Made by a program: the position numbers and the translations under genes
Notes under the pieces: generated by a model
What the model was told of the DNA's origin: nothing
The model's input: the letters and a program-made list of their open reading frames with translations, nothing else
Database searches by the model: none
Origin: Mucilaginibacter flavus
Lineage (GTDB): Bacteria > Bacteroidota > Bacteroidia > Sphingobacteriales > Sphingobacteriaceae
Direction of reading: 5' to 3'
NCBI RefSeq assembly: GCF_030409315.1
Contig: NZ_JAUFPS010000025.1
Coordinates: forward strand, 1 to 64,000
DNA: 64,000 nucleotides
In this document: piece after piece, positions 655 to 50,479 of the stretch
Layout of the letters: every line of letters starts with the position of its first letter
How positions within the stretch are numbered: position 1 is the stretch's first letter

Positions 655-2628
655 ATGGAAAGTGTGTTCTATAATATCAGCCAGGTTTTGGGCATCACCA
701 TTATCCACTCGCTATGGCAGGGGTTATTGGTTTGGTTCGCGTTACGGATGTTGCTTATTTGCGCTCCATCGCTATCGCCCATTAAAAAACATAACGCGGG
801 TATGGTGGCTATGCTGCTTATAGGCACCTGGTTTATTTACACCTTTATAAACCAGGTACAGGCACACAACTGGGTAAATTTAGCCGCGGCCAATACCAAG
901 GCTTTATTGCCCGATATTAACTTTCCGCTGGTTAACATCCATTACACCGCGCAAAACAATTATTACTATTATGTAATTGAAGGCTATCTGCCTTATGTAT
1001 CAGCTATTTATTTTATTGGCCTTGCATTTAATATTTTAAGGATGGGCCTGAATTGGCAGAAACTAAGTCAGATTAAACGCAGCATGATCCCGGCCGACAG
1101 GTTGCAGGATTATGTAGACGAACTTTGCAATCAACTGCAAATTAGCAGATATGTAAGCGTAAACATCAGCCGCTTTGTTGATGTGCCTTGCATGATTGGC
1201 TTTTTTAGTCCGATAATATTGTTGCCCATTACCCTATCAACCCAGTTATCTGCCGAGGAAGTAAAAGCGATTTTACTGCATGAGTTATCGCACATTAAGC
1301 GTAACGATTACCTCCTTAACCTGGTACAGCAGTTTATAAGTATGCTGCTTTTCTTTAATCCCTTTGCCCAGTTAATTAACAGGATAATAAACCAGGAACG
1401 CGAAAACCGGTGCGACGACCTGGTAGTACAAACAACCGCACAGCCCTTAGTGTATGCGCATGCGCTATTAAAGCTGGAGCAAACAAGGCAGGCACACCTG
1501 CAAATGGCACTTGCCGCCACCGGTAAAAAATATCATTTATTAACCAGAATTGAACGAATCATGAAAACCCAGAAACCCATAGGCAACGTGCGCCATTTTT
1601 TAGTGGCTGTTGCAATAATGGCCGCCGGCATCAGCAGTATTGCCTGGCTTAACCCTACCGTAGCCAACGGTAAAATAGCTATCAAAAAAGTAAATATCAG
1701 CTACCCTGCGGTATTGACCCATTTGCTTAACGATGATACCACATATAAAAAAGCGGTAAAAGTGCAAAAAGCCATCACGGCGGCAAAAGTTGCTAAAGCG
1801 ATAAAGGCCAAAAGAGCTGCCGAAGCCATTTACTCATCCAACTTTAACGATGCGGAACTAAATAAGCTAACCGCCGAGGTTGAGAAATACTCAAACCAGG
1901 TTGGCAAATACTACCAAAGCGACGACTTTTTAAAACAGCAAAAGCTACTTGAAGAAAAAGGCGAGGAAATGGAGAAGTTTTATAATCGCCCGGAATTGAA
2001 GAGGATGCAGGAAGAGCAGGAAAAAATGAGCGAAGACTTTCAGAAAAACTGGGGGGCTACTTCCGAAACCACTAAACTTGGTGAAGATATGGGCAAAATA
2101 GGCGAAAAGATTGGGGCTTACTATAACAGCCCCGAGTTTAAACGCATGAACGAGGAACTTAGGAAAAAGTATGGCATTAAAGGCGAATATCATGACGACC
2201 GCAAAGAGGAGAACTACCAAAAATACCAGGACGAGCTGCAAAGCAAAATACCGGGCGAAGTAAAAGAGCAAACCGAGCTTTTGAAAAAAATGGGCCAGGA
2301 TATGCGCAGTCATTACAATTCGCCGGAGTTTATCAAAAAACGTGATGAGTTGCGGATAATGGGCGACAGCATGCGAAAAGCCTATAACAACCCAGCTATG
2401 CAACAGCAAAAAGAGGAAATGAGAAAGCTAAGCCAACAAATGCGCAGCTTTAATAACAACCCCGAACTGAAAAAGGCGCAGGCAAATTTACGCGACGCCA
2501 GCAAACGCCTCAGAGAATACACCAATAGTCCGGAGTTTAAGAAACGTATGGCCGACGCTCGTAAGCAAGTTGAAGTATTGGATGAAAACGCTTCTGAAAG
2601 CGACAATAAAACCGATGGTATTAACTAA
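655..2628 (+). CDS. BlaR1-like M56 membrane metallopeptidase with repeat-rich C-terminal domain
   Basis: This is a 657-residue M56-family protein. The N-terminal 330 residues hold several membrane segments, the zinc motif HELSH at 209-213, and a downstream QERENRCDD stretch (about 247-255) that carries the likely third ligand. Classical BlaR1 ends in a penicillin-binding sensor. Here the C-terminal half is instead a charged, helical region (about 380-645) with at least five copies of a motif like YNSPEFKKR or NNPELKK. The protein is predicted to sense something in the periplasm and to cleave the co-encoded repressor. The ligand cannot be read from the sequence. The gene is co-transcribed with the repressor gene, with a six-base gap. 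Confidence 0.85.
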   Translation: MESVFYNISQVLGITIIHSLWQGLLVWFALRMLLICAPSLSPIKKHNAGMVAMLLIGTWFIYTFINQVQAHNWVNLAAANTKALLPDINFPLVNIHYTAQNNYYYYVIEGYLPYVSAIYFIGLAFNILRMGLNWQKLSQIKRSMIPADRLQDYVDELCNQLQISRYVSVNISRFVDVPCMIGFFSPIILLPITLSTQLSAEEVKAILLHELSHIKRNDYLLNLVQQFISMLLFFNPFAQLINRIINQERENRCDDLVVQTTAQPLVYAHALLKLEQTRQAHLQMALAATGKKYHLLTRIERIMKTQKPIGNVRHFLVAVAIMAAGISSIAWLNPTVANGKIAIKKVNISYPAVLTHLLNDDTTYKKAVKVQKAITAAKVAKAIKAKRAAEAIYSSNFNDAELNKLTAEVEKYSNQVGKYYQSDDFLKQQKLLEEKGEEMEKFYNRPELKRMQEEQEKMSEDFQKNWGATSETTKLGEDMGKIGEKIGAYYNSPEFKRMNEELRKKYGIKGEYHDDRKEENYQKYQDELQSKIPGEVKEQTELLKKMGQDMRSHYNSPEFIKKRDELRIMGDSMRKAYNNPAMQQQKEEMRKLSQQMRSFNNNPELKKAQANLRDASKRLREYTNSPEFKKRMADARKQVEVLDENASESDNKTDGIN

Positions 2629-2715
2629 ATAATTTAGCAATCAGTTACAAAAATTTAATTTAAGTAACCTTAATTCGTAATTTAGTATCCTAAATAAAAT
2701 AAGGATACTTTTTTT

Positions 2716-4440
2716 ATGCTTCAGAAGCTAACCATTAATAACTACGCGCTGATTGATAACCTGGAGATTAGTTTTGGCCAGGGATTAAACATCCTCACCG
2801 GCGAAACCGGCGCCGGTAAATCAATTATACTGGGTGCTCTTTCGCTTATTTTAGGGCAGCGTGCCGAAAGTCGTTACTTTTTTAATCAGCAAAAAAAATG
2901 CGTTATTGAAGGTTCTTTCAGGATCAACGATTTTCATTTAAGTTCCTTTTTTGAAGATAACGACCTGGACCATGAAGCCGAAACTGTTTTAAGGCGTGAA
3001 ATTTCTGCCGATGGTAAATCGCGCGCTTTTGTAAATGACACGCCCGTTAACCTTACTACCCTTAAACAATTAGGCGAAAAGCTGATTGATATCCACTCGC
3101 AACATGCTACGCTGGAGATTAACGACCCGGAGTTTCAACTATTGGTTGTAGATTCGGTAGCTAAGCATGATGATTTGCTCAATGATTATCGGACCAAATT
3201 CCGCACTTATAAAAAATCGGTAAGTAAACTCAACGAGTTAATTGCCGATAGCGATAAGGCCAAAGCTGATCTTGATTATTTTCAGTTTCAGTTTGATGAG
3301 CTGGAAAAAGTAAGTTTAATTGCCGATGAGCAGGAACCTTTGGAGCGGGAATTATATGCGCTAAACAATGCAGAGGAAATTAAACGTCACCTTTATGGCG
3401 CCTACTACCTGGTGCAAGAAAGCGAAACGGCCGCCCTTTCGCAATTACGCGAGGCCGGGCAACAATTAGCCGCACTTGAAAAGTTCGACCCGCAGATTGA
3501 GGAGTTACACCAACGCCTCAACAGTACCATCATCGAACTGAAAGATATTGCTGCCGAGGTAGAAGCCATTGAACAAAAAACGCATACCAATGAGGCTCGC
3601 GTTGAAGAAATAAATCTTCGGTTAAGCCTTATTTATAACCTGCAAAAAAAACATCGCGTAAACAGCAATGCCGAGTTATTGCAAATTCAGGACGAACTAT
3701 CTGAAAAAATACAGCAGGCTTTATTTGGCGATGAAGCTATTGAAAAACTACAAAAGCAATTGATAGCCGATAAGACTGAATTAGAAAAGCTGGCGGTTAA
3801 ACTTACCGCCAACAGGGTTAAAGCAATTCCTTCTATAGAGAAACAAGTAATTGATACGCTGGCCGAAATGGGCATGGGGAATTCGACGTTGAAGATTGAA
3901 CACATAGTCGGAAAGTCCGAAAGTCCGGAAGTCGGAAAGTTAGGTGTTCTTCCGGACTTTCGGACTTCCGGACTTTCGGACCACCTCACCAAAAATGGTG
4001 TTGACCACGTACGTTTCTTGTTTTCGGCAAATAAAGGCCATGCCTTGGCAGAAATGAGCAAGGTAGCATCAGGTGGTGAACTTTCCAGACTGATGTTGAG
4101 CATCAAATCAATCATTGCAAAATATACGGCTTTGCCTACCATCATTTTTGATGAAATAGATACCGGTGTATCTGGCGAAGTGGCCAATAAAGTAGGCCAG
4201 ATTATGGAACGCCTTGCCGACAACCTGCAGGTGATTACCATTACTCACCTGCCGCAAATTGCCAGCAAAGGCAAAAACCATTACTTTGTTTACAAAGATG
4301 ACAGCGCCGCTGTAACCTACACCCGCATTAAACAATTAGATAATAACGAGCGTGTAACCGAAATTGCCAAAATGCTAAGCGGCGACAAACCCGGCGAAAG
4401 CGCTTTGCAAAATGCGAGGGAACTATTGAGTAGTAAGTAG
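2716..4440 (+). CDS. recN: DNA repair ATPase RecN, with an in-frame palindromic insertion
   Basis: RecN is an SMC-like ATPase that acts at DNA double-strand breaks. The Walker A motif GETGAGKS lies near residue 30, a coiled-coil region covers about 150-380, and the C-terminal ATPase half contains the signature ASGGELSRLML and the Walker B region IIFDEIDTGVSGE. Its 574 residues exceed the usual length of about 550. The surplus is a 25-codon insertion at 3907-3981 (about residues 398-422), encoded by two inverted arms of 8-base units, placed just before the conserved segment DHVRFLFSANKG. The insertion keeps the reading frame. The last residues and the stop codon come from a second repeat array beginning at 4429. 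Confidence 0.95.
   Translation: MLQKLTINNYALIDNLEISFGQGLNILTGETGAGKSIILGALSLILGQRAESRYFFNQQKKCVIEGSFRINDFHLSSFFEDNDLDHEAETVLRREISADGKSRAFVNDTPVNLTTLKQLGEKLIDIHSQHATLEINDPEFQLLVVDSVAKHDDLLNDYRTKFRTYKKSVSKLNELIADSDKAKADLDYFQFQFDELEKVSLIADEQEPLERELYALNNAEEIKRHLYGAYYLVQESETAALSQLREAGQQLAALEKFDPQIEELHQRLNSTIIELKDIAAEVEAIEQKTHTNEARVEEINLRLSLIYNLQKKHRVNSNAELLQIQDELSEKIQQALFGDEAIEKLQKQLIADKTELEKLAVKLTANRVKAIPSIEKQVIDTLAEMGMGNSTLKIEHIVGKSESPEVGKLGVLPDFRTSGLSDHLTKNGVDHVRFLFSANKGHALAEMSKVASGGELSRLMLSIKSIIAKYTALPTIIFDEIDTGVSGEVANKVGQIMERLADNLQVITITHLPQIASKGKNHYFVYKDDSAAVTYTRIKQLDNNERVTEIAKMLSGDKPGESALQNARELLSSK
3907..3981 (+). repeat. Palindromic repeat inserted in frame within recN
   Basis: Left arm 3907-3939 consists of units like GAAAGTCC, and right arm 3949-3981 is built from CTTCCGGA/CTTTCGGA units. 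The arms are imperfect inverted repeats of 33 bases around a nine-base loop. Total length is 75 bases, exactly 25 codons, with no stop in the recN frame. Further GACTTTCG-type units lie just behind recN at about 4479-4505, so the same family is present both inside and after the gene. Confidence 0.8.
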
Positions 4441-4564
4441 TAAGTATCAAGTAGTAAGATTTTTGACTTTTGGACTTTCGGACAAAAGACTTTCGGACTT
4501 CTTGTCTTACTACTTACTACTTTACAAAAATCTTGCTACTTGATACTAACTACTTGATACTAAT
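4429..4564. repeat. Paired inverted heptamer arrays behind recN
   Basis: The left array reads AGTAGTA, AGTAGTA, AGTATCA, AGTAGTA from 4429 and includes the recN stop codon. The right array reads CTTGCTA, CTTGATA, CTAACTA, CTTGATA from 4532. Both keep strict 7-base phase and are inverted relative to one another, with CTTACTA units (about 4506-4519) and GACTTTCG-type units between them. The transcript could fold into a long imperfect stem. The right array ends three bases before the fabI -7 box. Confidence 0.75.
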
Positions 4565-4597: not shown

Positions 4598-5410
4598 ATG
4601 GCTTATAATTTATTAAAAGGCAAAAAAGGGATCATATTTGGTGCCTTAAATGAGCAATCCATCGCCTGGAAAGTTGCGCAGCGCGCAGTACAGGAAGGTG
4701 CCGAAATTGTATTATCAAACGCTCCTATCGCGTTACGCATGGGCGAACTCAATAAATTGGCAGAAGAGTGCAACGCGCCAGTTATCGGCTGCGATGTTAC
4801 CAATGGCGACGATATCAACAACCTTTTCACCAAAACCAAAGAACACTTTGGTGGTGGTGTTGATTTTATTTTACACTCTATTGGTATGAGCGTAAACGTG
4901 CGCAAAAACATCCCTTACTACGAAAACAACTACGATTTTACCCACAAAGGTTTTGATATTTCGGCGTTGAGCTTACACCGCATTTTGCAGGCTGCCATGA
5001 AACATGATGCCATTAATGAGTGGGGATCTGTTTTGGCGTTAAGCTATATTGCCGCTCAACGTTACTTCCCTGGATATAATGATATGGCCGATAACAAAGC
5101 AGTATTGGAAAGCATTGCACGTAACTTTGGTTACGAGTATGGCGTAACCAAAAAAGTACGTGTAAATACTATTTCACAATCACCAACCCGCACAACTGCA
5201 GGTTCGGGCGTTAAAGGCTTTGATGGTTTTATTGATTTTGCAGAAAAAATGAGTCCGCTTGGTAATGCTGATGCAGATCAGTGCGCTGATTACTGCGTAA
5301 CCCTGTTTAGCGATTTGACCAAGATGGTTACTATGCAAAACCTTTTCCACGATGGTGGTTTCTCTTTCACCGGCGTAACACAAGCTGTTATTGATCAGAT
5401 GGGGAAATAA
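4598..5410 (+). CDS. fabI: Enoyl-[acyl-carrier-protein] reductase (NADH)
   Basis: This 270-residue short-chain dehydrogenase carries out the last reduction of fatty-acid elongation, converting trans-2-enoyl-ACP to acyl-ACP in the cytoplasm. The FabI-type N-terminus LLKGKKGIIFGALNEQSIAW binds the cofactor. The segment YFPGYNDMADNKAVLE (about 167-182) corresponds to the Tyr-x6-Lys catalytic arrangement of FabI. The substrate-loop and C-terminal segments (NLFHDGGFSFTGV) also fit. The gene has its own -7 box and stands alone, followed two bases after the stop by the 7-bp tandem array. Confidence 0.95.
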   Translation: MAYNLLKGKKGIIFGALNEQSIAWKVAQRAVQEGAEIVLSNAPIALRMGELNKLAEECNAPVIGCDVTNGDDINNLFTKTKEHFGGGVDFILHSIGMSVNVRKNIPYYENNYDFTHKGFDISALSLHRILQAAMKHDAINEWGSVLALSYIAAQRYFPGYNDMADNKAVLESIARNFGYEYGVTKKVRVNTISQSPTRTTAGSGVKGFDGFIDFAEKMSPLGNADADQCADYCVTLFSDLTKMVTMQNLFHDGGFSFTGVTQAVIDQMGK

Positions 5411-5412
5411 GG

Positions 5413-5500
5413 CTAAAGACTAAAGACTAAAGACTAAAGACTAAAGACTAAAGACTAAAGACTAAAGACTAAAGACTAAAGACTAAAGACTAAAGACTAA
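5413..5500. repeat. Perfect 7-bp tandem repeat, 12.6 copies of CTAAAGA
   Basis: Twelve complete identical copies (5413-5496) plus CTAA start two bases after the fabI stop codon. The purity suggests recent expansion and likely copy-number variation. The array runs straight into the bidirectional terminator hairpin. It is the purest of the phased heptamer arrays in this window. Confidence 0.97.
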
Positions 5501-18550: not shown

Positions 18551-18585
18551 GTGAAAGGATAAAGGCGAAAGGTAAAAGGTAAAAC
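18551..18585. repeat. Heptamer array: GTGAAAG GATAAAG GCGAAAG...
   Basis: Five 7-base units, each ending AAAG or AAAC, occupy exactly 35 bases beginning one base after the stop codon of the preceding gene. The units match those at 41377-41418 behind mscS. Confidence 0.75.
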
Positions 18586-25408: not shown

Positions 25409-25692
25409 GGTAAATAAAATTCAATCTACAGAAAATATTATAATAATATAATAACATGTATGTTACGGATGTGTGGAAATTCCAAGTCCGCAGTTTTCAG
25501 GCAGATGAATTTAATAAGGTTTCAGCTTTCACGATGTTGTAGGTTTATAAGGTTTGGCTGTTAGACGTAGGGTTGGAAGGAAGGTTTAACGAGTTTGAGA
25601 AATATTTTCCGAACCAGGGGAGGGAGGTTAGCGGCTACCTAAACGCGGGCCACAAGCGGGACGCTTGCGGCAGCGGGGGAATATTTATAAAA
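25409..25692. other. Intergenic region with a small hairpin
   Basis: No gene is seen. A perfect hairpin CAAGCG-GGA-CGCTTG lies at 25653-25667 within a locally GC-rich patch (GCGGGCCACAAGCGG...), unlike the AT-rich rest. Confidence 0.45.
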
Positions 25693-25723
25693 GTCTTAAC
25701 TCTTGATTCTTGACTCTTGGCTC
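25693..25723. repeat. Solo 31-bp heptamer arm behind dcd
   Basis: On the dcd coding strand it reads GAGCCAA, GAGTCAA, GAATCAA, GAGTTAA, GAC, beginning six bases past the dcd stop. It has the same length, phase and terminal GAC as the arms of the inverted repeat around the four-helix-bundle gene at 48535-48974. No second arm or ORF is beside it, so it may be an empty site or a seed. Confidence 0.8.
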
Positions 25724-25729
25724 TATTCC

Positions 25730-26266
25730 CTACCACTTATTCTTCCACATCATGCTTTCAACCGGGCGGGTAGTGGGGTTGTTGTATTTGGCGTTATCCT
25801 TGGTGTTATACAGGGTTTCAATATCTCCCTCAACCACAAAATAAATAAGCTGACCGATGGGCATACCCGGGTAAATGCGTACAGGCTGTGCGCAGGAGAT
25901 TTCCAGCGTCCAGGTATTACAAAAACCTACGTCGCCTTTGCCAGCGGTAGCGTGAATATCTATGCCCAATCTGCCGGTGCTTGATTTACCTTCTAAAAAG
26001 GGCACGTGTTTATGGGTTTCGGTATACTCTACCGTTACACCCAGGTAAAGCGTATTGGGTTGTAATACAAAACCTTCTTTCGGGATTTCGAAGGCGTCTA
26101 TTTCGTTGTGTTTTTTGGCATCAAGCACCCTATCGCGGTAGGTAGCCAGGTGCTTGCCTAAATGCACATCGTATGAATTGGTGCCAAGACAATCGCGCGT
26201 AAAGGGTTCAATAATGATGGTTCCTTTTTCTATTTCTTCCAGAATGCGCTTATCAGATAATATCAT
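25730..26266 (-). CDS. dcd: dCTP deaminase
   Basis: The 178-residue protein has the Dcd/dUTPase beta fold. LEGKSSTGRLGIDIHATAGKG (71 residues from the C-terminal end) contains the nucleotide-binding S-S-x-G-R and the catalytic Glu region (WTLEIS). The reaction is dCTP to dUTP, a step in dTTP supply, in the cytoplasm. The N-terminus MILSDKRILEEIEKG is standard for the family. A TAnnTTTG -7 box on the minus strand stands at 26289-26296, 23 bases before the ATG. Confidence 0.95.
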   Translation of the reverse strand: MILSDKRILEEIEKGTIIIEPFTRDCLGTNSYDVHLGKHLATYRDRVLDAKKHNEIDAFEIPKEGFVLQPNTLYLGVTVEYTETHKHVPFLEGKSSTGRLGIDIHATAGKGDVGFCNTWTLEISCAQPVRIYPGMPIGQLIYFVVEGDIETLYNTKDNAKYNNPTTRPVESMMWKNKW

Positions 26267-41376: not shown

Positions 41377-41418
41377 CGAAAACCTTTTACCTTTCGCCTT
41401 TAACCTTTTGCCTCTTTC
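41377..41418. repeat. Heptamer array behind mscS
   Basis: Six 7-base units CGAAAAC, CTTTTAC, CTTTCGC, CTTTAAC, CTTTTGC, CTCTTTC end two bases before the mscS stop codon. On the mscS strand the units are GTAAAAG-like, matching the array at 18551-18585. Confidence 0.75.
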
Positions 41419-41420
41419 CC

Positions 41421-42227
41421 CTACCCCGCTTTAGGGAAAGCCACTCCATTCGCGCCAAAATCTTTTAAGATTTTTTCCATGAGGGCTATTTTAGCGGTGA
41501 GATAATTTGCAGGTTCAACCCATACGTTGATGGTGATCCGTACCGAGTCAATTTCCATCGCGATGACACCAACACGGGCAGCGGGTTCATGCAGCAGGTT
41601 GTCTGTGTTTTTAACAGCATTATCAATGATGGTTTTTACCTTATCCAAATCATTGGCGTAAGCTATCTTCACCTCAAAATCAAGCCGGCGCTTTCCTTCG
41701 CGGGTTACGTTCACTATCACCTCGTTAAAAAGCTTCCCGTTCGGGATAATAACCGTTTTGTTATCGGCAGTAATTAGCACCGTGTAAAATATCTGGATAG
41801 ATACCACTTTACCATCCTGGCCTTGCGCAATAATGCTGTCATCAAGCTCAAAAGGTTTTAACAGCAAAATAAGCACTCCACCGGCAAAGTTTTGGAAAGT
41901 ACCGGATAAGGCCAAACCGGCAGCAACCGAAAAAGCACCTATGATGGTGGTGAAAATGGTCATCTCCAACCCGATGATATTCATCACCCAAATAATGAGT
42001 AAAATGTAAAGGGTGGTAATTGACAAACTTAAAAAGAATGGTTGTAACGACGAGTGCACCCCTCTTTTGAGCATGCGGGTACGGAGCCTGTTGCGCAGAA
42101 ACCGGATTACCCAAAGACCAATAAAAAATATGATTATTCCACCTAAGTATTTTGGGCCGTGGGTGACCAACCAGTTGTGGAAATCGGTATAAAAATCTTC
42201 TACTTTGTAAATGCTTTTGTCTTTCAT
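41421..42227 (-). CDS. Small-conductance mechanosensitive channel, MscS family
   Basis: A 268-residue protein of standard MscS length. It has three N-terminal membrane helices; the third is the pore helix AFSVAAGLALSGTFQNFAGG (about 98-117), followed by the beta domain (DDSIIAQGQDGKVVSIQIFYT) and the alpha/beta C-terminus (RRLDFEVKIAYANDLDKV). It opens on hypo-osmotic shock and relieves turgor. A minus-strand TAnnTTTG box is at 42243-42250, and a 33-codon ORF lies just upstream. Confidence 0.92.
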   Translation of the reverse strand: MKDKSIYKVEDFYTDFHNWLVTHGPKYLGGIIIFFIGLWVIRFLRNRLRTRMLKRGVHSSLQPFFLSLSITTLYILLIIWVMNIIGLEMTIFTTIIGAFSVAAGLALSGTFQNFAGGVLILLLKPFELDDSIIAQGQDGKVVSIQIFYTVLITADNKTVIIPNGKLFNEVIVNVTREGKRRLDFEVKIAYANDLDKVKTIIDNAVKNTDNLLHEPAARVGVIAMEIDSVRITINVWVEPANYLTAKIALMEKILKDFGANGVAFPKAG

Positions 42228-44272: not shown

Positions 44273-44284
44273 GATTTTAGTTTT

Positions 44285-44445
44285 GAATTATTGAATTACT
44301 GAATTATTGATTTAAGCGCGTTGCCAATCTTTTCATACAGTGATCAATAACTATTTTCGTTTTAACTTTTGATTTTAGGTTGAAGAACTATTGTTTGTGC
44401 AGGATAATTCAATAAATCAATCCTTCAATAATTCAATAATTAATT
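44285..44445. repeat. Paired octamer arrays between groES and groEL
   Basis: Array 1: GAATTATT, GAATTACT, GAATTATT, GATTTAAG (44285-44316). Array 2: AATTCAAT, AAATCAAT, CCTTCAAT, AATTCAAT, AATTAATT (44406-44445), which runs into the groES stop codon at 44444. The arrays are inverted relative to each other and keep 8-base phase. A stem in the groES-groEL mRNA can form. Confidence 0.75.
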
Positions 44446-44719
44446 AAAGAACCGCGTAAATATCAGATTCGCGCATAATTAAGTACTCTTTGCCTTCGTA
44501 GGTAATTTCGGTACCGGCGTATTTACCATATAAAACCTGGTCGCCAACTTGTACTGTTAAAGGCTCATCTACTTTACCGTTACCAACTGCAACGATAGTT
44601 CCACGCTGAGGTTTTTCTTTAGCGGTATCCGGGATAAAAATTCCCGAAGCGGTCTTCTCTTCGGCAGCTGCTGCCTCTACAACCACTCTGTCGCCGATTG
44701 GTTTAATGTTTAATGACAT
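44444..44719 (-). CDS. groES: 10-kDa co-chaperonin GroES
   Basis: A 91-residue heptameric lid of GroEL. The mobile-loop region [21 protein letters not shown] and the [17 protein letters not shown] segment are typical. An inverted pair ATGCCAA (44770-44776) / TTGGCAT (44796-44802) lies upstream, but I see no CIRCE element. Regulation by heat is expected but not readable here. Confidence 0.97.
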
Positions 44720-47283: not shown

Positions 47284-48522
47284 CTATAAATTTAACTCTT
47301 TTATTTTTCTGTACAATGTACGCTCAGATATACCCAGTTCATTAGCGGCAAGCTTACGTTTGCCTTTATGCTTTTTCAAGGCTTTACGAATCAGGTCCGA
47401 CTCCTTTTCAATTAAAGAAAGTGATTCTTCCACCTCTTCGGCCTCGTGGGTTATGTTATACGCGTCGCTCCCGTTATTGTTATTATTAACGGGTTGTTGC
47501 AAAGTAAATTGCGATTCGGGATTTCCGGGCAGCTCAATATCGCGGTACAATTGGTTAATTGTTTGGGAATGATTGGCATAATTGGTTGATACACCGCCAT
47601 GCTCAATAATATCGGCTACCAGTTTTTTAAGTTCCACCATGTCCCGTTTCATATCAAACAGCACTTTGTACAGGATGTCGCGCTCAGAAAAATCCTCTTT
47701 GGGCTGATTATCCAGTCGCATTGGCAAGTTGCGGCCACCGGTTTCATGCGGGATGTAAGTAAGCAGCGTTTGCGCGGTGATGATGCGATCGCGCTCCAAA
47801 ACAGCCAATTGCTCGGCCATATTTTTAAGCTGCCTTACGTTGCCGGGCCACGTATAATTGATGAGCACCTGTTGCGCGTCGTCATCTAACTGAATGGGTG
47901 GCGTGCGGTATTTATCGGTAAAATCTGAAGTGAATTTTCTAAACAACAGGTAAACGTCTTCTTTTCTATCACGCAAAGGTGGAATCTTCAACGGAACGGT
48001 ATTCAACCTATAATAAAGATCCTCCCTGAATTTTCCGCTTTTTACGGCATCGTAAACATCCACATTGGTGGCTGCAATAACGCGCACATTGGTTTTCTCA
48101 ACCTTTGATGAACCTACTTTAATGTACTGGCCAGATTCCAGTACCCTTAATAAACGGGCCTGGGTGCCCAGCGGCATTTCGGCAATTTCATCTAAAAATA
48201 TGGTACCGCCGTTAACGGTTTCAAAGTAACCTTTACGTTCGCCAACGGCACCGGTGTAAGCACCTTTTTCATGACCGAACAATTCCGAATCGATAGTTCC
48301 CTCTGGTATAGCACCGCAGTTCACCGCAATGAAAGCCCCATGCTTCCGCGGACTCATCTGGTGTATTATTTGCGAAAACACCTCTTTACCGCTCCCGCTT
48401 TCGCCGGTTATCAGTACCGAGATATCTGTAGGCGCCACCTGGTTGGCAATATTTATAGCCCGGTTAAGCAATGGCGAATTGCCAATGATCCCGAAGCGTT
48501 GTTTTATTTCTTGTATTTCCAT
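47284..48522 (-). CDS. Sigma54-dependent transcriptional activator without receiver domain
   Basis: A 412-residue protein that starts directly with the AAA+ domain: Walker A TGESGSGKE (about 38-46), GAYTGA loop (GHEKGAYTGA, about 88-97) that contacts sigma54, and Walker B GGTIFLDEIAEM. A linker of about 120 residues and a C-terminal Fis-type HTH (KRKLAANELGISERTLYRKI) follow. With no N-terminal sensor, control may come through expression level or a partner. This gene is regularly found next to miaB and lptE in Sphingobacteriaceae and may control envelope genes. Confidence 0.92.
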   Translation of the reverse strand: MEIQEIKQRFGIIGNSPLLNRAINIANQVAPTDISVLITGESGSGKEVFSQIIHQMSPRKHGAFIAVNCGAIPEGTIDSELFGHEKGAYTGAVGERKGYFETVNGGTIFLDEIAEMPLGTQARLLRVLESGQYIKVGSSKVEKTNVRVIAATNVDVYDAVKSGKFREDLYYRLNTVPLKIPPLRDRKEDVYLLFRKFTSDFTDKYRTPPIQLDDDAQQVLINYTWPGNVRQLKNMAEQLAVLERDRIITAQTLLTYIPHETGGRNLPMRLDNQPKEDFSERDILYKVLFDMKRDMVELKKLVADIIEHGGVSTNYANHSQTINQLYRDIELPGNPESQFTLQQPVNNNNNGSDAYNITHEAEEVEESLSLIEKESDLIRKALKKHKGKRKLAANELGISERTLYRKIKELNL

Positions 48523-48534
48523 TTGTTTAAAAAA

Positions 48535-48974
48535 GAGTCAAGAATCAAGAGTCAAGAATTAAGACTTTTTACTTCCGTTTTTAAGATGTATTCCCTAAAA
48601 GAAAATAACATTCTTTGAACTTCAGATACCAGATCTATACAATCCTTCAGTTTATCTAATGACCCGTATTTTCTACGCTCACATATTAACAATTGTGTTT
48701 CCAATTCAAACGAAGATGAAATCGCTATCGATAAAAACTCCGCAAAGTGCTTATCTGTGTTCTTTCCCGACCCCTCCGCAATATTTGAAGGAATTGAACA
48801 ACAACTCCTGTTTATTTGATCAATTAAATTAAAACGTTCATTTGCCGGCAATTCCCTGCTAAAATCAAAAACCATATCTGTCAAATCCATCGCCTTCAGC
48901 CATATCTTCAAATTCTTAAAATTATGTCTCATTCCAGGCTTCGGTCTTGATTCTTGACTCTTGATTCTTGACTC
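48535..48974. mobile_element. 440-bp element: four-helix-bundle gene inside 31-bp inverted repeats
   Basis: The left end 48535-48565 begins GAGTCAAGAATCAAGAGTCA, and the right end 48944-48974 is its inverse with one mismatch in 31. Both ends are phased 7-base units (GAGTCAA, GAATCAA, ...). The interior is just one gene. The right end touches the stop codon of miaB (48974-48976), and the left end supplies the stop codon of the inner gene. I call it a candidate mobile element from its architecture; transposition is not shown. Confidence 0.6.
48552..48932 (-). CDS. Four-helix-bundle protein (23S rRNA intervening-sequence / S23 type)
   Basis: The ATG at 48932 gives MRHNFKNLKIWLKAMDLTDM, the canonical start of this family; longer frames upstream only translate miaB in another frame. 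The 126 residues contain FSRELPANERFNLIDQINR, SCCSIPSNIAEGSG and FLSIAISSSFELETQL, the conserved family blocks. The family was first met in intervening sequences of 23S rRNA genes and is related to Avd of diversity-generating retroelements; its biochemical role is unclear. The last four codons and the stop lie in the left inverted repeat. Confidence 0.88.
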   Translation of the reverse strand: MRHNFKNLKIWLKAMDLTDMVFDFSRELPANERFNLIDQINRSCCSIPSNIAEGSGKNTDKHFAEFLSIAISSSFELETQLLICERRKYGSLDKLKDCIDLVSEVQRMLFSFREYILKTEVKSLNS

Positions 48975-50479
48975 TATTCTACCACCTTCCCTATCAACGT
49001 AGCCGTGGTAGTTCTTTCTATCAGCACGTTCACGTATTGGCCGGGTTTGTAGTTTTCGCCTACGGGGAAAATCACCATAGCGTTTTGATCGCTGCGGCCA
49101 CAATAGTCGTTTTTTGATTTTTTGGAGAAACCTTCTATCAGTACCTTTTCTACTTTACCAATGCGGGCCTGCGCACGGTAGTATGAATACTCCTGCTGCT
49201 TGGCTACTATTTCTGTTAAACGTTTTTGTTTCACTTCCTCCGGGATATCGTCGGCATAACGTTTTGCGGCTAACGTGCCCGGGCGTTCGCTGTATTTAAA
49301 CATGTAGGCAAAATCGTATTTTACATAGTCCATCATGCTTACGGTATCGGCGTGCTCTTCATCTGTTTCGGTACAAAAGCCGGTGATCACATCGGTAGAT
49401 ATCGCGCAATCGCCAATAATATTACGAATAGCATCAATCCTGTTGATATACCAATCGCGATCATAAGTACGGTTCATAATATCCAGAATACGGGTATTGC
49501 CCGATTGTACCGGCAGGTGGATATAGTTACAAATGTTTTCGTATTTGGCAATAGTATATAAAACCTCGTCGGTAATATCCTTTGGATGCGAAGTTGAAAA
49601 ACGTACACGCAAATCAGGACTGATCAATGCTACCATTTCTAAAAGGTTGGCAAAGTTGGTGACAGCCTCACCTAAATCCTCTCCAAAGGAGAGGACTTTT
49701 TTGTCCTGCGCTGTAGTAGTTACAGCGTGCTCATCAGCCCCCTCTCCTTTGGAGAGGGCAGGGTGAGGCCTCCACTTAAACGAATCCACGTTCTGGCCCA
49801 GCAAAGTTACCTCGCGGTAGCCTTTATCAAAAAGATCTTTACACTCGGCAATAATTGATTGCGGATCGCGACTACGCTCGCGGCCCCGGGTAAATGGTAC
49901 TACGCAAAACGAACACATGTTATCACAACCGCGCATGATAGATACAAAGGCATTGATACCATTGCTGTTTAGGCGTACCGGGCTAATGTCGGCATAGGTT
50001 TCCTCACGGGATAACAATACGTTCACGGCTTTTTGGCCGCTATCAACCTGGTCTATCAGGTTTGGCAAATCGCGATACGCGTCCGGCCCAACCACTACGT
50101 CAACCAGTTTTTCTTCTTCTAAAAATTTAGATTTCAAGCGTTCGGCCATGCAGCCTAACACACCTACTACCAGTCCTGGGTTTTTAACCTTGCTTATAGT
50201 AAATTCTTTAAGGCGGTTACGTACACGCTGCTCGGCATTTTCACGAATAGAGCAGGTGTTAATAAAAATAACATCTGCCTGGTTATGGTCACCGGTAGTT
50301 TCAAAACCTTGCTCCGATAATATCGATGCAACTATCTCGCTATCGCTAAAGTTCATAGCGCAGCCATAGCTTTCTATATATAATTTACGGCCATTGTTTT
50401 TACCTGTTGGCTCCAAAACCAACGCCTCTCCTTGCCTGCTCTCGTCATGTGCCTTATCCGGAAGAACCAAATCCATCAT
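48974..50479 (-). CDS. miaB: tRNA-2-methylthio-N6-dimethylallyladenosine synthase MiaB, with in-frame palindromic insertion
   Basis: MiaB is a radical SAM methylthiotransferase that modifies A37 of tRNAs. The N-terminal UPF0004 domain carries cysteines ([23 protein letters not shown]), the radical-SAM motif is [14 protein letters not shown] (about 182-195), and a TRAM domain closes the protein. Its 501 residues exceed the usual length of roughly 460. The surplus of 35 codons (about 238-272, [13 protein letters not shown]...) is encoded by a palindromic element at 49665-49769, between [11 protein letters not shown] and [11 protein letters not shown]. The frame is kept. The stop codon touches the repeat of the four-helix element. 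Confidence 0.95.
49665..49769 (-). repeat. 105-bp cloverleaf-like palindromic element inside miaB
   Basis: Outer arms GCCTCACC (49665-49672) and GGTGAGGC (49762-49769) enclose three perfect hairpins: CCTCTCC-AAA-GGAGAGG (49678-49694), CGCTGTA-GTAGT-TACAGCG (49709-49727), and CCCTCTCC-TTT-GGAGAGGG (49740-49758). The length is exactly 35 codons and it is open in the miaB frame. Confidence 0.88.

Follow-up and report, generated by a model that had tools for sequence, protein, structure and literature searches.

The window analysed here is the whole stretch of 64,000 nucleotides from Mucilaginibacter flavus (contig NZ_JAUFPS010000025.1, C18 in our numbering). Between miaB (48974..50479, minus strand) and the gene of a sigma54-interaction-domain regulator (47284..48522, minus strand), which, read along the element, lie upstream and downstream of it, respectively, it holds a gene for a four-helix-bundle protein of 126 aa (48552..48932, minus strand; PF05635, 23S rRNA IVP, and TIGR02436). 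The left arm (48533..48565, plus strand) consists of phased, inward-reading heptamers AAGAGTC/AAGAATC and the right arm (48944..48974, minus strand) of the same heptamers in inverted form. The initial annotation had described two 31-base heptamer ends that differ at one base, a single four-helix gene with its stop codon inside the left end, a right end touching the miaB stop codon and a solo copy behind dcd, and all of this agrees with what we found. Positions 48535-48565 match the reverse complement of 48944-48974 over 31 bases with one mismatch, and the longer arm match spans 38 nt at 92% complementarity. The four-helix gene ends with a stop codon (48552-48554) within the left arm, and the miaB stop codon (48974-48976) contacts the right arm. 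The solo array of the AAGAGTC/AAGAATC-type unit is located at 25691..25724 (minus strand) and adjoins an ORF (25730-26266) that was named dcd by eye alone. Folded as RNA, the whole element (48526..48983, minus strand) closes the gene with a basal stem of 26 uninterrupted pairs, or 36 with two single mismatches, at an MFE of −121.9 kcal/mol (z −4.99). No Rfam RNA family matched in 48300-49200.

Several other repeats were observed in the window. A gene-less hairpin at 44283-44447 is built from the 8-mer unit AATTATTG, which is also the unit of another PF05635 element of this genome (L009), and a tight hairpin at 3906-3981 has an 8-mer unit of the AGTCGGAA type and a loop of ~8 nt. Four further phased heptamer arrays, solo and with other units, occur at 4424-4472, 5409-5500 (~13 near-perfect units), 18554-18584 and 41382-41427. 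Inside miaB there is a perfect inverted repeat in frame (49678-49757, arms of 17 nt, 46 nt apart), which gives the impression that a hairpin repeat of the intergenic kind has made its way into miaB.

The 126-aa protein matched PF05635 with an E-value of 4.4e-32 and 110.9 bits (curated cut-off 33.8) and TIGR02436 with 1.9e-29 and 102.1 bits (cut-off 24). Its predicted model has four helices (pLDDT 94.3) and matches the structure of XCC0516 (2gsc) with a TM of 0.88, which identifies it as a four-helix bundle, and that of BT_0352 (2rld) with a TM of 0.79. The model also matched Avd of the diversity-generating retroelements (DGRs; 4dwl, TM 0.74, 12% identity; 8ube was matched as well) and the match to the bAvd profile was weak and below its cut-off. 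The likeness of PF05635 to Avd is pointed out in a passage of PMC10053308. The gene is under purifying selection: dN/dS is ~0.03 between the miaB copy and its sister, and its median is 0.066 for 20 pairs that share a site and have a dS below 1.5; 84 pairs were unsaturated and 310 were saturated. A defence role was set aside, as three PF05635 members had no PADLOC match, and the idea of a phage-borne element was dropped after a tblastn search with one member gave no match in the phage collection.

The 23S rRNA intervening sequences (IVSs) with an S23 ORF, as in Coxiella (PMC4990558) and at an Azospirillum plasmid locus (L134), share with the miaB element the protein family, the size of about 430-450 nt, the position of the gene inside an inverted-repeat stem and the heptamers in the arm. 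The difference lies in the setting: the IVSs lie in rRNA, whereas the miaB element has two protein genes, miaB and the sigma54 gene, on either side. The earlier suggestion that a minimal stem-loop element lies here among protein genes thus stands, with arms, one PF05635 gene and a basal stem of the above stability. We read the miaB element as an operon-borne relative of the 23S rRNA IVS in which the arms and the PF05635 gene form one element and the arm unit has 6-9 nt, mostly 7 nt, and we put the probability of this reading at roughly 60%. It is supported by the RNA fold and by the low median dN/dS and also by L134, where an LSU rRNA match (777-3975) encloses the tblastn match (2001-2321), both on one strand, and the arms of the PF05635 gene are heptamer arrays too. 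Tandem heptamers are likewise present in the published Coxiella IVS (PMC4990558). With L134 as the positive control, a 23S motif within 3 kb was found at 0 of 228 other loci in the stretch available for each; this says little about the frequency of the rRNA form since rRNA is frequently missing from metagenome bins and the stretches are in many cases short.

We then compared PF05635 loci to control genes. In the strict test a locus needed an inverted match score of at least 26 and two arms that are both periodic at 7-9 nt; the score cut-offs were chosen after the mismatched-arm null results for the named loci were known. There were 228 loci in all, of which 224 were testable as four had too short a flank. 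The genus set (118) comprised the 10 loci of our own genome, 29 best matches selected by the tool plus 79 of a further 80 places picked by hand among the matches listed, for which most fragmented assemblies were passed over and L294 was dropped as a repeat of L036. As these loci occupy only 37 sites they are not independent. The many-phyla set of named loci contained the best 80 of at least 581 confirmed stretches, and the 422 control genes were taken from the same contigs as the PF05635 loci. Strict phased inverted arms were present at 168 of the 224 testable loci compared to 3 of the 422 control genes, that is, they are about 100 times rarer at the controls (Fisher p 8e-101, uncorrected for shared sites or relatedness). 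Two of the three passing controls themselves involve PF05635: one is a missed PF05635 gene and one lies between two such elements. The initial annotation had suspected a link between this protein family and phased arrays and had named repeats equally common beside unrelated genes as an objection; the counts bear out the link. As the pattern AAGARTCAAGARTC occurs 117 times in the genome compared to 0 times for the reversed control pattern, and such arms were seen at only the three controls, a chance origin of the arms can be excluded.

For the individual sets we detected the following rates: 100/118 in the genus (among the matches listed), 12/30 in the phylum and 56/76 in the many-phyla set, the latter for the best 80 of at least 581 stretches. 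The overall contrast with the controls supports a relationship to the IVSs, as do the 42 of 56 loci outside Bacteroidota that pass the strict test (by record title, again among the best 80 of at least 581). The weaker phylum sample counts against it. Against a null of mismatched arms, 65/79 named loci lay above the 95% level and 50/79 above the 99% level (best 80 of at least 581). For the phylum sample these numbers were 16/30 and 3/30, and for the first 39 genus loci 23 and 13, the genus null being raised because units recur between genomes. Across 1.2 Mb of the named contigs arrays of period 7 dominate, with 107 of them at most 600 bp from the gene and 110 elsewhere. Of the inverted phased pairs with a score of 34 or more and a loop of 330-700 bp, 42 enclosed a PF05635 gene and 4 had other contents, which further favours kinship with the IVSs (both counts for the best 80 of at least 581). 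The period is not fixed at 7, as some elements have units of 6 nt (L280, L287 and L215, with AGTTGC/AGTGGC and TAGGAA). At L161 (10-1916) two PF05635 genes (10-421 and 1655-1916) bracket one ORF that resembles carA by eye; heptamer arrays lie close to 426 and 1587.

Our own genome carries ten PF05635 genes and seven of these loci pass the strict test. The failure of L001, L002 and L007 is a point against the IVS-related reading. By eye we identified 7-mers at L001, L003, L005, L006 and L010, 8-mers at L008 and L009 and a 9-mer at L004, while the arms of L002 and L007 are weak; the repeat unit differs at almost every own locus.

The orientation of the gene relative to its two neighbours, with ++ for the direction of both and -- for the opposite of both, was scored by majority as ++ at 30, -- at 0 and mixed at 5 genus sites. 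The phylum set gave 26 ++, 1 -- and 1 mixed. Among the best 80 of at least 581 stretches, all 18 Bacteroidota loci were ++, compared to 26 ++, 5 -- and 17 mixed outside Bacteroidota, and this last result counts against a relationship to the IVSs. The ORF caller is crude; for the control genes it gave 482 ++, 137 -- and 340 mixed. Sense orientation as a universal rule was therefore abandoned: it holds in Bacteroidota and shows no clear difference from other genes outside. One element that breaks the rule lies antisense between two ribonucleotide reductase genes on a Nostoc plasmid (L316, 983-1351).

There were 34 plasmid records with a match. In the 16 of these that we examined, mostly cyanobacterial, the phased arms were clear in 13, with a period of 7 or 8, short in two (L132, L320) and absent in one (L317). 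Plasmid copies lie between cas6 and cas4 in L130 and L317 and between cas10 and cmr3 in L318, while in L133 a virB10-type gene follows two genes further on. In the part available, a large CRISPR survey (PMC10910872) names 23S rRNA IVP as one of the genes with a new link to CRISPR adaptation modules, and we offer insertions between cas genes as a plain reason for this association. In Flavobacterium a four helix bundle protein is described between the guanylate kinase gene and a nucleotide adenylyltransferase gene in an excerpt of PMC5524665 that contains no word beginning with "heptamer".

Between different sites arm similarity rose with protein identity, with a Mantel r of 0.58 for the 118 genus loci at 37 sites (among the matches listed) and a maximum of 0.06 over 1000 permutations. 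When each site was represented by a single locus, r had a median of 0.60, and 200 of 200 resamples exceeded their 50 permutations. When loci at the same site were compared, the two arms of a locus matched each other better than the arms of other genomes in 54 of 75 cases (p 8e-8). This within-locus matching and the Mantel correlation both speak for the IVS-related reading; the failure of the matching at two of the eight sites (1/6 and 2/5 loci) speaks against it. At site s1 we found unrelated protein clades with different units. On these three grounds we assign the arms to the element that carries the gene and not to the place where it sits: the repeat unit goes with the protein clade rather than the site, and arms and PF05635 gene are one element.

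At the miaB site the 16 PF05635 genes from 16 genus genomes form one clade (98/90). Orthologues that stay in place without flanking repeats, which the initial annotation had named as a possible objection, were not encountered: 15 of the 16 copies pass the strict test and the remaining one (L285) has shorter arms of the AAGAGTC/AAGAATC-type unit. In another draw of genus genomes, 30 miaB-sigma54 junctions contained the gene in 10 cases (profile match) and lacked it in 20. The initial annotation had proposed to look for empty junctions; those that lack the gene mostly hold gene-less hairpins of other types, and one has a lone AAGARTC arm in a gap of 59 bp. The miaB copy thus has the look of a long-standing resident under selection, absent from many relatives, and not of a recent arrival. 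At other sites turnover is quick: the sister genome shares four of the ten own PF05635 sites, with DNA that is ~85-88% identical there. At the thyA-folA junction (names by eye), which holds the own L007 element, the relatives L345, L348 and L349 carry a small gene pair, the second product of which is Doc-like by eye, with phased arrays beside it in some.

Phased arrays are also found apart from the gene. A de novo search of 400 kb of our own genome returned 25, 9 and 6 arrays with periods 7, 8 and 9, respectively, 0 or 1 for any other period and 0 after shuffling. It is conceivable, though in our judgement rather unlikely, that phased hairpins are an independent intergenic class, i.e. terminators or mRNA end structures shaped by slippage and recombination, and that the four-helix genes are passengers in their loops. 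This would fit the 12 inverted pairs in the same 400 kb, as only 2 of them enclose a PF05635 gene; the 10 others comprise one loop of 408 nt and nine loops of 29-131 nt. That gene-less hairpins outnumber gene-bearing ones also counts against a relationship to the IVSs. The L009 site points in the direction of passengers as well: across seven genomes, three have no hairpin (32-46 bp) and three a gene-less hairpin of the 8-mer unit of L009, and our own genome alone has the hairpin with the gene. The flanks of the three short sites have diverged, which makes a duplication unreadable.

The distribution across genomes, on the other hand, speaks against passengers. In stretches of 400 kb there are 40 arrays in our own genome, compared to 2 in a relative without a PF05635 gene and 0 in a relative with a single one; G021 (15 genes) has 12. 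In stretches of 100 kb we counted 2 arrays in G032 (2 genes), 2 in G039 (2 genes) and 5 in G049 (9 genes), and 0 arrays in 50 kb of E. coli. G058, with 10 PF05635 genes and 0 arrays in 100 kb, counts against the IVS-related reading. Passengers would also not be expected to show a unit that follows the protein clade between sites, nor different units for the clades at s1, and control genes are hardly ever found in such loops. Across 61 genomes the summed matches of three units correlated modestly with the number of PF05635 genes (rho 0.31, p 0.016); rho was 0.34 when genome size was controlled for and 0.21 (p 0.10) when densities were used. For the individual units the counts include the arms of the elements and the presence of a gene type is known only for the loci that were read. 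On this basis GTTCATR and AGTAKCA arrays were more numerous in genomes with an observed gene bearing the respective arms (p 4e-4 and 2e-5), which supports an IVS-like element, whereas the counts of AAGARTC, the unit of the window, did not track the matching gene (p 0.30), which favours passengers and weakens our reading. For three gene-less loops at one site we computed the likeness to the end of the gene and obtained p-values of 0.028 (G020), 0.33 (G056) and 0.61 (G080). Deletion remnants of the gene as the source of gene-less loops had weak support and were set aside, as only one of the three resembles the gene's end, which likewise counts against the IVS-related reading.

Short gene-less inverted repeats also accompany fewer gene-bearing copies with the same ends in the MITE and REP/RAYT systems. 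The present elements share this likeness, but they have no transposase inside, their arms are tandem arrays and the unit varies by clade.

A second alternative, which we regard as unlikely, is a domesticated cis-regulator: a ring-shaped protein would attach to AG-bearing repeats in its own leader or tail arm, much as TRAP recognises phased triplets, and so act as a switch for folding, processing or read-through in the host operon. The strong purifying selection and the single clade of 16 at miaB are in line with such a role, as are the median arm length near 32 nt (some 4.5 units) and the title of a cited paper, which presents a homologue as five four-helix bundles. The inward polarity is fixed and the 5' arm has more AG than CT at 58 of 65 many-phyla loci (5 opposite; best 80 of at least 581 stretches), at 33 of 35 genus sites (1 opposite) and at 12 of 15 loci of the phylum set (1 opposite). 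However, an inverted repeat gives the same 5' arm from both strands, so that polarity alone is no pointer to RNA, and we dropped an RNA-level meaning of it. Furthermore the host operons vary by site and the gene is absent from miaB in 20 of 30 relatives. A retro-element partnership, in which the Avd-like protein would depend on a reverse transcriptase for copying the RNA, once excised, to further sites and which the initial annotation had raised on account of Avd, is very improbable despite the common four-helix fold (4dwl, 8ube) and the sub-threshold bAvd match: with the RVT_1 model as the only probe, 27 of 61 genus genomes have no match and all 27 have PF05635 genes, so that the partnership is rejected as a requirement, the counts of the two are uncorrelated (rho 0.02, 61 genomes), and the only RVT_1 match of our own genome lies on contig C70, with none on C18, the contig of the window.

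If the miaB element is indeed an operon-borne relative of the IVSs, its arms would pair as a stem in the operon transcript and RNase III would be expected to cut this stem, as the literature on 23S rRNA IVSs suggests. The insert would then leave the mRNA with its neighbours unharmed, and a position between operon genes would be cheap to maintain. A phased stem would still pair after slippage by one complete unit, and this would explain why the arms are arrays. The ring-forming four-helix protein may recognise its own unit and so stabilise, process or spread its own element together with the gene-less hairpins of that unit. We consider it likely that the protein reads its repeat unit, given that each protein clade has its own.

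Intergenic heptamer arrays have been reported before. The accessible text of PMC4692102 describes GGGAATC arrays in Xanthomonas, which form convergent inverted pairs, and GGGGA(C/T)T in Nostoc. PMC4679880, as far as its text is available, describes TAACTGA arrays in Beggiatoaceae for which no transfer mechanism is evident, and heptamer arrays in Cyanobacteria and Bacteroidetes, with no mention of S23, four helix or intervening sequence. These arrays are phased, intergenic 7-mers like the present arms, but in the available parts of the two papers they are not tied to a four-helix gene. In the PMC open library, the scope of our search to the exclusion of subscription journals, we found no paper that joins the S23/IVP gene with heptamer arrays. 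As a tentative extension, with the odds against it, the phased inverted arrays of 7-9 nt across bacteria (those of the genus, the cyanobacterial ones, GGGAATC in Xanthomonas and TAACTGA in Beggiatoa) could be the ends and gene-less offspring of one IVS-like class, in which a ring-forming protein would read the phase and sequence of its own unit and of which the 23S rRNA IVS would be the member that landed in rRNA.

It seems that the S23/IVP gene of the 23S IVSs and the heptamer arrays between genes belong to a single anatomy. The PF05635 family thereby gains a concrete ligand candidate, its own repeat arm, and the heptamer arrays gain a candidate origin. A widespread class of elements is added between the genes of operons, where it may process their mRNA.
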